This document shows, piece after piece, positions 10,475 to 15,440 of a DNA stretch of 62,857 nucleotides (positions within the stretch are counted from its first letter, which is position 1; each line of letters begins with the position of its first letter). The translations under genes were made by a program, and so were the position numbers. This DNA is from a virus. The notes under the pieces are model-generated. The model ran no database searches and was not told the origin of the DNA. It was given only the letters and a program-made list of their open reading frames with translations. The stretch lies in IMG/VR virus record IMGVR_UViG_3300024308_000007, positions 1-62,857 of that record. One strand, written 5' to 3'.

Positions 10475-10906
10475 CTATCCACCAATGTCTGTCATCGTTT
10501 GTATCGCTAACACTAACTCTCGCCTGGTATTCATATTAATAGTTATTAACGATTCAAATGTCAAATCATCCTTTGTCCTATAGTAATTTTCGCCGTGCGT
10601 GTTCTCACCGCCGTAGGCGTCCTTCAACCGGTTGAACTCTTCCAGCCGGAGGACGATACAGCCGTGGTGGCGCGGCTGCATTTTCAGGACTTCCGTCAGC
10701 GGGTCGCAGAAGACAATGAACTGGTCGGGCTTATGGAACAGCACGACGGCTTCGAACTCCTTGTCCCACCAGATTTCCGTCTTTTCGTCCGGCTTGTGGA
10801 CGGTTTCAATGATCACGCCGGTGCGCCAGTTCCGCCAGTGCTTATACACCGCGCTGCGGGATGACGCGGCTGGTACGTGGAACCGGTCAGAGCTTATCGT
10901 CTTCAT
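10475..10906 (-). CDS. Hypothetical phage protein (143 aa)
   Basis: A basic, aromatic N-terminus (YKHWRNWRTGVIIETVHK) leads into a beta-rich middle (AVVLFHKPDQFIVFCD). No family recognised. Its start lies 20 bases inside the previous gene. Confidence 0.6.
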   Translation of the reverse strand: MKTISSDRFHVPAASSRSAVYKHWRNWRTGVIIETVHKPDEKTEIWWDKEFEAVVLFHKPDQFIVFCDPLTEVLKMQPRHHGCIVLRLEEFNRLKDAYGGENTHGENYYRTKDDLTFESLITINMNTRRELVLAIQTMTDIGG

Positions 10907-11120
10907 CGTCGTTTTTCTCCCGCCAGACGCGGACGCCCGCCTGCCCCTGGTATATCTCGTCGTTCTCTACGCGGTGGATGGAAATCTTCACGCCCGCCCG
11001 CCGCGCTACCTGCCGCAAAAAGTACACGTCCTTCGGCTGCTTGCCCTCCACGAAGAAGGAATGGCCGACCTCCATGTCGGCGAGCATTTTGCGGTAATTG
11101 TCGTATTTAGCTTTTGCCAT
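10887..11120 (-). CDS. Hypothetical small protein (77 aa) with acidic tail
   Basis: Pattern MLADMEVGHSFFVEGKQP...FLRQVARRAGVKISIHRVE resembles small phage DNA-binding-like folds in which a short beta hairpin is followed by a helix, but no named family fits. It ends EKNDDEDDKL, one of the shared acidic C-terminal tails. The start has GGGGCGG upstream. Confidence 0.65.
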   Translation of the reverse strand: MAKAKYDNYRKMLADMEVGHSFFVEGKQPKDVYFLRQVARRAGVKISIHRVENDEIYQGQAGVRVWREKNDDEDDKL

Positions 11121-11129
11121 AACCGCCCC

Positions 11130-12335
11130 TTAAAGCTGATCGTCCTCGTCGATTTCCTCTTCCCCGACGATTTCCTCTTCGCCCACCTTGCCGGTACCGT
11201 CACCCTCTTCGCGCTGGTGGTCAGGCGAGTAGTGCGCCGACAGGTCTTCCAGGCAGGCAATCATGTCGCCCAGGACGTCCGTCAGCAGGTACATATAGGC
11301 GTGGAAGTCCAGCGCCGCGCTATCGTCTTCCACGCTACCGCGCTCGGCGACCAGCACGTCGGAGATTTTCACGCCGGAGAACACGCCCTTCGCGTTGAGC
11401 TTGAACGTGGTGTAGCCCATCGGGTTGTCGATCGGGGACTTCTGCCAGAAGCGCATGGACATGTTGTCCACTTCGTAGTCCTGGTCCAGCGCCTCTTTCA
11501 CCAGCGGGTCGTGGTCACCGTCGCTGTCGCGCAGGATCTGGTCCTTAAACGAGTACGCCGAGCCGCCGGACATCTTGTCGACCAGCTTGGCCGAGGTGTA
11601 CGGCACAAACGTCGACCACGGCTTGTCGCTGTCATCGTTTTTCAGGATGCGCGTCAGCAGCCATTTCACCGGCAGGGTCAGGTCGTTCTCAAACGGGTAG
11701 ATGGGGAACGAGCCGAACGCGCGGCGGAACAGCGCGGCGTTGCAGTCCTCAACGACCTTGTGGCTGCTGATGAAGTAGAACACGTCGTAGATCGCGGGGT
11801 CGTTCACCGAGCGCTGGAACAGGACGGGGATGTGGCGGGTACGCACCAGCGCTTTCGCCAGCAGGCGCGCGGCCACCACATCTTTGATTTCCGCCCACTG
11901 CTTACGGTTCAGCGGTTCGCCCTGACGCTTGGCCAGCTTGTCGCCCTCTTTCTGGACTTCCGCGCGCAGCGTGTCTCCTGGCAGGATGCGTTCGCGGCGC
12001 TCCAGGATAGCGAAGATCTGGCCGTTGTCGAGCGCATGGAACACGGTGTCAGCGGGGTCGAAGTCGCTGTCGTCTTCCCATTCGATTTCGATGAACGGCA
12101 GGGCGTCCATGATGCGGGCAAAGCCGTATTTCAGCCATGCGGACGAGGCGGGGTCTTCGGCATACAGTGTGCCGCCGGACTCGGATGCCTCTTTCACCTG
12201 CAGGTTCATCGCGCGGGCGACCTCTTCTGCAGAGTGGCCCGACCAAAGGTGTTTCAGGGGGTACGCGTCGCCCACCATGGATTTTTCCAGGCGCATGACG
12301 TTAAACCCTTTGAGCTTGTTAGCGTAGGTAGCCAT
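11130..12335 (-). CDS. RdgC-like recombination-associated protein
   Basis: 401 residues. The segment LNRKQWAEIKDVVAARLLAK...VRTRHIPVLF followed by YDVFYFISSHKVVEDCNAALFRRAFGSFPIYP follows the RdgC pattern (a 'K-E/L-K' helix, a conserved short strand, then 'lre.lGslPv.p'). RdgC is a ring-shaped dsDNA-binding protein that limits RecA activity; phage versions are common. The very acidic tail (EEEIVGEEEIDEDDQL) is not typical of bacterial RdgC and matches tails on the phage replication proteins. The fit is by eye and moderate. Confidence 0.6.
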   Translation of the reverse strand: MATYANKLKGFNVMRLEKSMVGDAYPLKHLWSGHSAEEVARAMNLQVKEASESGGTLYAEDPASSAWLKYGFARIMDALPFIEIEWEDDSDFDPADTVFHALDNGQIFAILERRERILPGDTLRAEVQKEGDKLAKRQGEPLNRKQWAEIKDVVAARLLAKALVRTRHIPVLFQRSVNDPAIYDVFYFISSHKVVEDCNAALFRRAFGSFPIYPFENDLTLPVKWLLTRILKNDDSDKPWSTFVPYTSAKLVDKMSGGSAYSFKDQILRDSDGDHDPLVKEALDQDYEVDNMSMRFWQKSPIDNPMGYTTFKLNAKGVFSGVKISDVLVAERGSVEDDSAALDFHAYMYLLTDVLGDMIACLEDLSAHYSPDHQREEGDGTGKVGEEEIVGEEEIDEDDQL

Positions 12336-12336
12336 T

Positions 12337-12693
12337 TTATCTTCCTTCGTGGCGCGCCAGGATTCCTTCGATGTCCGTGTGGCGGATGTCGTGGGTGATG
12401 CGGCGCAGGTTGTCGATAGCGGACGACAGGTCGCCCAGTTGTCGGAACAGGTATTCGGAGATGATTTCCTGGCGGCTCGGCGACAGGTTGGTGTCGTTGA
12501 TCACTTCAACGGCCGTTTCGATGGTATGGCGCATCTCCTTTTCAAGCGCGAATACCGCGTTTTCCGCGGCTTTCGGTGTGTCTTTTACGCCCAGCAGCAT
12601 CACGCGGCAGATGTCGAATATCCGGCGCGTATCTTCAATGCTGTCGAACTCCGGCTGTTCAGGGGCCGGCACCATGCGGGCGAGGTCAGACAT
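12337..12693 (-). CDS. Hypothetical helical protein (118 aa)
   Basis: Almost fully helical (TRRIFDICRVMLLGVKDTP, then YLFRQLGDLSSAIDNLRRI). One base separates its stop from the RdgC-like gene, suggesting joint expression. Function unknown. Confidence 0.65.
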   Translation of the reverse strand: MSDLARMVPAPEQPEFDSIEDTRRIFDICRVMLLGVKDTPKAAENAVFALEKEMRHTIETAVEVINDTNLSPSRQEIISEYLFRQLGDLSSAIDNLRRITHDIRHTDIEGILARHEGR

Positions 12694-14166: not shown

Positions 14167-14333
14167 ATCAGGTCTTCCTCAAATGCCGCCGCCGATCCTA
14201 GCAATTCATCTATGACAGGCCAGCGCCACGTACTTACTTCGGTGGCTTCGGGGTGCTGGACGGAAATGTCGGCAAGAATTTGCGCCGCTTCGCGTAACAA
14301 TTCGACCGTTTGTTGCAGTTCTTTTTGGTTCAT
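14163..14333 (-). CDS. Small protein (56 aa) with acidic C-terminal tail
   Basis: The ATG at 14333 overlaps the TGA/TAA of the reading frame that overprints dcm (stop 14330-14332, ATGA-type). The product begins MNQKELQQTVELLREAAQIL, a helix, and ends AAFEEDLI, one of the shared acidic tails. It ends in a 4-base overlap with the next gene. Function unknown. Confidence 0.65.
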   Translation of the reverse strand: MNQKELQQTVELLREAAQILADISVQHPEATEVSTWRWPVIDELLGSAAAFEEDLI

Positions 14334-15331
14334 AGCAGATCATCCTCATTAATTCCGGCCAGCTTGGCCATTGCGGGGCCAATACTACCCGTACCCCAGT
14401 CCAGGACTTCATCGTCAAAGTCGGCTGTCTCCGATGGCGAGGATAAACGCGCGGATGAACTCGGCAGCGAGCGCGGGGATGATGGCGTTCCCGTAGCCTT
14501 TAAGTCGGATGTTCTTGTTAGCGCGAGCCAGGCGTAATATTTCGGACTTTCCCTGTCCCACGATTTCGGAAAACCCATTAACCAGCGGGGCAAGGCCGGG
14601 TTCAATTGGCCGCCACTTACCATCCCCGCCGCATACCCAGTCAACAACTCCCCAAGGCATGTAATGCGCAGCATGGTCGTCCTGAATCCCTGTTCCGCCG
14701 CGAAGTCGATGCGATCCCACGTCCTGTCCTTCCCGTCTTTCCGGATGACGGTCGGCCCCGATCCCTTCACGTCCGATGCCGTTGGCGTCGGCCAGGCTGC
14801 GTAATACATCGTGAGTTGCTCGCCAAGGTTCCCAGGGCTGAGTGACGTCCGGCCACTCTTCAACCTGGCCGCCTGCCGTCTGGCCAAACTGTCCGACGAG
14901 CGTTCCCCAATTTTCGACATCACTGTCGGGGACATCCAGCCGGTGAGCGCCGAACATGATTCGTTCCCTGCGGTGCGGCGCGCCGATGATACCGCCTGGC
15001 AGTACGGCCGATCCCACGGCGTAACCCGCCATTTCCAGTTGATCGTATAAATCGTCGAGCCAATGTTTTTTGATAGCGTTCTCAACCTGTTCGCCAAAGA
15101 TAACTGGAGGGCGACACTCTTTGACGAGTCGGCACCAGGTTGGCGCGAGGTGGCGATCGTCGCTGCGACCTTTTTGTTTTCCGGCCGGACTGAAAGGCTG
15201 GCAGGGAGGACTTCCGGTCCATACGCGAAAGTCATCGGGGAAACCGGCCATTCGTAAGGCGAGCGGCCATCCGCCAATTCCGGCAAAAAAGTGACAGGCG
15301 TTAAAGCCGCGAAGATCGGATGGTTGGACAT
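14330..15331 (-). CDS. Overprinted gene in the alternate frame of dcm (333 aa)
   Basis: This frame lies almost wholly over the cytosine methylase gene but is independently supported. (1) The ATG at 15331 has a strong Shine-Dalgarno GAAGGAG (15340-15346) 8 bases upstream. (2) Its stop overlaps the ATG of the downstream 56-aa gene in the 4-base pattern used throughout this operon, whereas dcm stops 81 bases earlier. (3) The product contains AAWPTPTASDVKGSG and LNPALPRWLMGFPKSW, strings I recall from hypothetical proteins encoded alongside phage C5 methylases. (4) It ends GINEDDLL, the shared acidic tail. The function is unknown; dedicated partners of methylases are one option. Confidence 0.7.
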   Translation of the reverse strand: MSNHPIFAALTPVTFLPELADGRSPYEWPVSPMTFAYGPEVLPASLSVRPENKKVAATIATSRQPGADSSKSVALQLSLANRLRTLSKNIGSTIYTINWKWRVTPWDRPYCQAVSSARRTAGNESCSALTGWMSPTVMSKIGERSSDSLARRQAARLKSGRTSLSPGNLGEQLTMYYAAWPTPTASDVKGSGPTVIRKDGKDRTWDRIDFAAEQGFRTTMLRITCLGELLTGYAAGMVSGGQLNPALPRWLMGFPKSWDRESPKYYAWLALTRTSDLKATGTPSSPRSLPSSSARLSSPSETADFDDEVLDWGTGSIGPAMAKLAGINEDDLL

Positions 15332-15440
15332 CGACAATACTCCTTCGGTCGACCACGCCGTCTGGCAGGTCACCGGATAAAATTAAGTTCTCCAGCCAGT
15401 CGGCCGCGTTGTTATCGAATTCGTTGTAGTAGACCGCCAT
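14415..15440 (-). CDS. dcm: C5 cytosine-specific DNA methyltransferase
   Basis: 341 residues from the ATG at 15440, which overlaps the upstream stop. Motif I FFAGIGGWPL (51-60), motif IV SPPCQPFS with catalytic Cys80, motif VI GEQVEN, motif VIII HRRERI and motif X GYGNAIIPALAAEF are all present. It is therefore probably active, transferring a methyl group from SAM to cytosine C5. The target-recognition region lies between about 180 and 300 and gives no site by eye. With the Dam-type enzyme at 7574 it would give broad protection from restriction. Almost the whole gene is also read in another frame (14330-15331). Confidence 0.9.
   Translation of the reverse strand: MAVYYNEFDNNAADWLENLILSGDLPDGVVDRRSIVDVQPSDLRGFNACHFFAGIGGWPLALRMAGFPDDFRVWTGSPPCQPFSPAGKQKGRSDDRHLAPTWCRLVKECRPPVIFGEQVENAIKKHWLDDLYDQLEMAGYAVGSAVLPGGIIGAPHRRERIMFGAHRLDVPDSDVENWGTLVGQFGQTAGGQVEEWPDVTQPWEPWRATHDVLRSLADANGIGREGIGADRHPERREGQDVGSHRLRGGTGIQDDHAAHYMPWGVVDWVCGGDGKWRPIEPGLAPLVNGFSEIVGQGKSEILRLARANKNIRLKGYGNAIIPALAAEFIRAFILAIGDSRL

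Follow-up and report, generated by a model that had tools for sequence, protein, structure and literature searches.

Two-chain methylases and the layout of the locus

C5-cytosine DNA methylases made of two polypeptides are already a known kind of enzyme. In M.EcoHK31I, motifs I to VIII and motif X are carried by the large chain and motif IX by the small one, and the predicted recognition domain was assigned to the large chain (PMC3404938). M.AquI likewise consists of two chains forming one C5 methylase, the small chain holding part of the variable region together with motifs IX and X (PMC3404938). That M.EcoHK31I requires two proteins is announced in the title of a 1995 paper by Lee, Kam and Shaw, listed in PMC3404938. 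Accession X82231 is given for the M.EcoHK31I sequence in PMC6174562.

The DNA analysed here (hereafter the window, i.e. the whole viral stretch of 62,857 nucleotides) belongs to a phage close to Erwinia phage pEp_SNUABM_08 (Casjensviridae, Gwanakrovirus). Two long frames, offset by +1, lie on its minus strand, as do all features of the locus given below: a C5-cytosine methylase frame of 341 amino acids (alpha, 14415..15440) and a frame of 333 amino acids (beta, 14330..15331), for which we propose the role of a recognition subunit bearing motif IX. The ATG of beta stands 109 nt inside the methylase gene and its end 85 nt beyond the methylase stop, so that beta is, this 85-nt tail excepted, nested within alpha (15331 to 14330 versus 15440 to 14415). 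The putative ribosome-binding site of beta, GAAGGAG (15340..15346), is found 8 nt upstream of this ATG, within the alpha Arg-Ser codons of DRRSI, and the beta stop codon (TGA) overlaps the start of the next open reading frame (56 codons) as ATGA (14330..14333). The two frames, the GAAGGAG 8 nt before the ATG and the overlap with the next start codon had been pointed out in an earlier note on this DNA, which placed both frames on the same strand without naming it, and each of these was retrieved. In four close relatives, the same ribosome-binding site and ATG are kept, and it is beta, not the methylase, that terminates at the start of the next gene; the junction is of the same type and the next gene varies.

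The end of beta, EDDLL, had also been likened to that of other proteins of this phage. A few neighbours do carry acidic tails (DEDDQL, DEDDKL, NEEL), but the likeness is loose, and the sequence past motif IX of beta is not conserved across the family. The C-terminal tail of beta in the window (14330-14414) is approximately 23 codons longer than that of the close relatives, with the same EDDLL before the next start.

The small gene of M.EcoHK31I reportedly overlaps, or nests in, the large gene in another frame, and both proteins are said to be needed in vitro. The window shares this nested layout, its small gene lying in the +1 frame and mostly inside the large one, and further resembles M.EcoHK31I (YGGCCR; E. 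coli HK31) in having motifs I to VIII and X on alpha and motif IX on the second chain. M.AquI (CYCGRG, alpha/beta) is alike in its two chains with motif IX on the small one, and differs in that motif X, which accompanies motif IX on its small chain, is found here on alpha. A search for the M.EcoHK31I locus in E. coli genomes yielded prophage copies only, in the regions opened; the Klebsiella aerogenes plasmid LR134256, considered as a possible EaeI locus, proved to hold a fragmented prophage-like copy.

Motifs and predicted structures of the two proteins

Alpha belongs to the C5-cytosine methylases, as it matches PF00145 above the cut-off (E = 8e-21) and phrog_363 with E = 2e-67, and displays the core motifs PPCQPFS, EQV, APHRRER and GNAIIP in the alignment. 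Motif X (LKGYGNAIIPALAAEFIRAFILA, 14436..14504) is read in the alpha frame as GYGNAIIP, corresponds to a confident helix in the model and lies where the beta frame is free of constraint. In the AlphaFold model of alpha, confidence is high over most of the stretch 1-176 and over residues 321-341, whereas pLDDT is below 50 for nearly all of residues 177-317; within the alpha chain, no folded target-recognition (small) domain was found, this same stretch being one that drifts in the alpha frame. Foldseek matches the model to M.HaeIII and M.HhaI. From these matches and the confidence profile, alpha would thus resemble a large domain plus the motif X helix, with a probably unfolded stretch in the place of the small domain.

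Beta matches phrog_1008 (E = 9e-22), and its conserved features are repeated W-TP-xxxD modules followed by LNPxxxRWLMGxPxxW. In the window, the translation contains a module of the W-TP type, WMSPTVMSKIG (14906..14938), and a second one, WPTPTASDVKGSG (14756..14794); such modules are repeated in relatives and belong to a single frame in Mycobacterium phage ShiLan gp70. Motif IX of beta, QLNPALPRWLMGFPKSW, is located at 14558..14608. Its pattern, W[LM]MGxPxxW, was detected solely in the +1 frame, where 206 of 224 genes carry it, and resembles motif IX of C5 methylases, the M.HhaI counterpart being LHPRECARVMGYPDSY. The strings PTPTASDVKGSG and WLMGFP, which the earlier note had linked to hypothetical proteins encoded with phage C5 methylases, are indeed present in beta, and the second frames of further phage methylase genes hold similar ones.

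A search of the PDB with the beta sequence gave nothing useful, and no solved relative. Modelled alone, beta reaches a pLDDT of 57 and a pTM of 0.32, with confidence for residues approximately 69-120 only; this poor model fits a subunit that requires its partner, though it is not evidence for one. Counted by pattern, beta carries between 0 and 5 W-TP-xxxD modules, depending on the gene (e.g. locus L003, 3487-3993), as if recognition modules were gained and lost. In Klebsiella phage vB_KpnS_ZX4 (L028, 1574-2923), the beta frame extends over 449 codons into an annotated endonuclease VII gene, which may represent a fusion of beta with a nuclease.

Dual coding and the division of constraint

The second frame is a real case of dual coding. 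To the window were added 240 further loci. Of these, 80 viral loci were picked by methylase alignment without regard to the second frame, which in turn served to pick the other 160 (80 viral, 80 bacterial). An open +1 frame matching the beta profile was found in all 80 methylase-selected loci, and a methylase in the other frame in all 160 beta-selected loci, among which no stand-alone beta was seen. Methylase conservation might by itself give rise to such co-occurrence. Synonymous codons were therefore permuted in 223 methylase genes (20 shuffles each), protein and codon usage being kept. The beta profile scored a median of 303 bits in the real genes versus 99 in the shuffles, the real gene exceeding all of its 20 shuffles in 223/223 cases. 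Similarly, the median open stretch in the +1 frame was 303 codons versus 152 in the shuffles of these 223 homologues; the +2 control frame displayed no excess (61 versus 76 codons).

It could be argued that methylase conservation and GC-richness are all that keeps the second frame open and similar, which would make it an artefact: approximately 99 of the 303 bits do derive from the methylase protein, and +1 frames are longer in GC-rich genes. However, the synonymous shuffles and the empty +2 control frame, the significance obtained for 8/8 genes with 45-52% GC, and codon-position rates that flip in favour of the second frame leave this explanation with a negligible probability. A chance open frame for beta was likewise rejected by the shuffle test and the selection data.

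As the beta profile was built from relatives, shared ancestry is not entirely separated from the outcome of the shuffle test; the codon-position selection test makes no use of this profile. In 26 disjoint close pairs, substitutions were classed by their effect in each frame, pairs without a motif anchor contributing nothing. In the methylase-only N-terminus (15332..15440), which is single coding and provides an internal control, the rates of change at methylase-frame positions 1/2/3 are those of ordinary coding (.026/.017/.263). The overlap with the catalytic domain (14961..15331) is dominated by alpha (.050/.009/.138). In the recognition region (14625..14960), the rates become.188/.041/.042, the fast position being position 3 of the beta frame, and in the C-terminus they are.056/.024/.125. 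Within the window's own clade, variable sites at positions 1/2/3 of the same four regions number 4/2/14, 12/6/21, 29/4/9 and 8/3/16, respectively. Over the whole overlap, dN/dS is 0.13 for beta and 0.12 for alpha, i.e. purifying selection acts on both frames, and in the recognition region it is 0.10 for beta versus 0.54 for alpha. Constraint is divided between the two frames, the catalytic domain and motif X falling to alpha, and the ‘target-recognition’ stretch and motif IX to beta.

These results uphold the earlier note's proposal of a true dual-coding pair by the very check that it had put forward, codon-position substitution in relatives. Neither of the contrary outcomes that it had named for the sequences of relatives, stop codons or neutral change, was observed: the core of the second frame is free from stops bar one unchecked case in approximately 212, and does not drift neutrally. 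What does not stand is the picture of beta as simply overprinted on a complete methylase, as beta is the conserved frame in the recognition region.

At finer resolution, the beta constraint is weak over the first approximately 50 codons; it is strong in the part that follows, motif IX included, and disappears at motif X. All second-frame stops in relatives but one fall within the first approximately 30 codons; the remaining one (L046, codon 288) is the unchecked case and may be an artefact of pattern matching. Since the first approximately 50 codons are weakly constrained and contain stops in some relatives, the essential part of beta begins later, and this weak constraint also implies that the annotated start may not be the sole one. 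In a minority of genes (e.g. N15, L020), beta must begin further on, as stop codons lie close to its canonical start.

The start signals of beta are held by the methylase motif DERSIxDV. Its Arg-Ser pair is encoded as AGG-AGN in 78 of 204 genes, where the codon use of the individual genes predicts 8.9, and the beta ATG was found in 147 of 170 genes, versus 68 expected. To judge from these counts, codon choices that are silent for the methylase are what builds the ribosome-binding site and the start codon of beta.

Relatives, interpretation and annotation

Mycobacterium phage ShiLan gp70 is a methylase in one frame, in which PCQPFS and VGAPHRRER are followed by LLPTPxxxDGxGG modules, RLAPAFSEWMMGWPAGW and GNGVVPQQA. 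The methylase-frame profile aligns to its catalytic part (E = 3e-19), and the beta profile exactly to its stretch of modules and motif IX (hhalign 84%, E = 8e-6); the latter link appears moderate in strength, as it rests partly on short motifs. The window shares with monolithic phage methylases of this type the catalytic motifs, the PTPxxxD modules and motif IX (WMMGWP in gp70 and its relatives), and differs from them in that they hold everything in one frame with ordinary codon-position rates. Indeed, position 3 of the single frame is the fastest in monolithic genes, as expected (.153/.098/.216 in the recognition region and.068/.043/.280 at motif IX, for a control of 7 pairs at widened cut-offs).

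Three ARRANGEMENTS were recognized among gp70 and 77 viral relatives: monolithic, split and nested. In split genes, the catalytic frame stops shortly beyond motif VIII, and the modules and motifs IX and X come next in the +1 frame; in nested genes, the catalytic frame continues to its own motif X, and modules and motif IX are in the +1 frame. Typing by motif pattern placed motif IX in the catalytic frame in 18 cases, in +1 in 45 and in +2 in one, with two where it was not found and 12 untyped. The split type is illustrated by loci L294, L295 and L298-L323, where the catalytic frame is overlapped at its end by a +1 frame that carries the modules and motifs IX and X and, in the examples read, has a GTG near its start; within L294-L323, the order of motifs looks M.AquI-like. 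The actinophage-type split loci correspond to M.AquI, and the window to M.EcoHK31I. A second nested family (L324 to about L354, viral metagenome contigs) has a second protein of 246 amino acids over almost the whole of a 255-amino-acid methylase frame (e.g. L344, 1408-2175 and 1421-2161). In both split and nested sets, the codon-position rates of the recognition region also favour the +1 frame. The nested pattern occurs repeatedly, in phages, prophages and plasmids alike, with proteobacteria as most of the hosts. In the bacterial family to which Enterobacter wuhouensis belongs, a beta-profile match was detected in 7 of 119 sampled genomes. One methylase frame of phage type bears an algal-virus label (HQ332136.1, Dunaliella viridis virus SI2), a host label which may be wrong.

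We estimate at about 0.82 the probability that this single stretch of DNA specifies two polypeptides which together make up one C5-cytosine DNA methylase, alpha being catalytic and beta the specificity subunit. Alpha would supply the AdoMet-binding and catalytic domain (motifs I to VIII) and the motif X helix; beta, presumably translated from a ribosome-binding site of its own within alpha, would supply the target-recognition region with its W-TP-xxxD modules and motif IX. The two chains would then associate into one active enzyme, in need of beta, that modifies the phage DNA, most likely protecting it against host restriction. The conservation of both frames, the split of constraint, the start signals, the split of motifs and the one-frame relatives are the supports shown here, and the small chain of M.EcoHK31I with its motif IX (PMC3404938) provides a precedent. 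Against this reading weigh the poor model of lone beta, the moderate hhalign link, the weakly constrained first approximately 50 codons of beta and the assignment of recognition to the large chain in PMC3404938. On this last point, selection puts recognition on the small chain of the window, the comparison with M.EcoHK31I being with its published description.

An alternative is that alpha alone is a complete methylase and that beta, whether a regulator or a restriction or anti-restriction partner, is a separate overprinted protein sharing only its DNA. This would agree with the presence of motifs I to VIII and X in alpha, with the conservation of RDGKWRPVEPG in the alpha frame at the expected place of motif IX, and with the want of a solved relative for lone beta. 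It is nevertheless unlikely, given that the alpha recognition region drifts and is predicted to be unstructured, that motif IX and the modules of beta belong to the methylase frame in monolithic relatives, and that beta was never seen apart from alpha among the 160 beta-selected loci. The ‘possible partner or regulator’ of the earlier note is therefore retained as a partner, most likely one subunit of this enzyme, and not as an added regulator.

Alternatively, a programmed +1 ribosomal frameshift could fuse the catalytic frame to the second frame in one chain, as the +1 step found in 45 of the 46 split or nested relatives typed by a motif IX outside the catalytic frame might suggest. However, such a fusion would lose motif X, which is conserved in the alpha frame, would make superfluous the beta-frame constraint that sets in at approximately beta codon 50, upstream of motif VIII, and would leave unexplained a conserved beta ribosome-binding site and ATG made of silent alpha choices; we consider it very improbable.

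If the two-polypeptide reading is right, the locus is a clear example of extended dual coding on one strand, its two frames dividing the domains of one enzyme, and the transition from a single gene to a nested pair becomes testable. Beyond this locus, we see roughly even chances that there is a large and mostly unannotated class of phage C5 methylases with the recognition domain in the +1 frame of the catalytic gene, that monolithic, split and nested forms make up a series in living phages, that recognition lies on the small subunit, contrary to the published M.EcoHK31I assignment, and that the variable W-TP-xxxD modules set or swap specificity while the catalytic subunit stays fixed. Three points seem little recognized: how broadly such enzymes occur in phages, the +1 series, and the placement of recognition on the small chain. 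In the literature searched, to which most subscription papers do not belong, no description of a nested methylase family in phages was found, and the main text of the GeneTack frame-transition paper does not mention it.

Automatic annotation usually shows one gene here; consequently, cloning the annotated methylase could give half an enzyme, and a specificity predicted from the methylase frame would rest on drifting sequence. The ‘Mte8-like protein’ of Escherichia phages K1ind1-3 and phrog_1008 represent the same nested-frame protein family as beta, under no other labels than ‘Mte8-like’ or ‘DNA methyltransferase’, and the literature and databases searched contained no description of its function or overlap. 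Together with the cyanophage label ‘methyltransferase’, these names show that the second frame has been seen and, in the material searched, not explained. Annotation is also inconsistent (L015, 1501-2475; L277, 1852-2406; L271-L273): the beta frame is called methyltransferase in Cronobacter phage JC01 and cyanophage Cy-LDV1, and alpha alone is annotated in the RefSeq E. coli prophage regions opened. Elsewhere in the window, an open frame of 588 codons on the plus strand (10632-12398) runs antisense to a minus-strand open reading frame (11130-12335), and is probably a by-product of composition.
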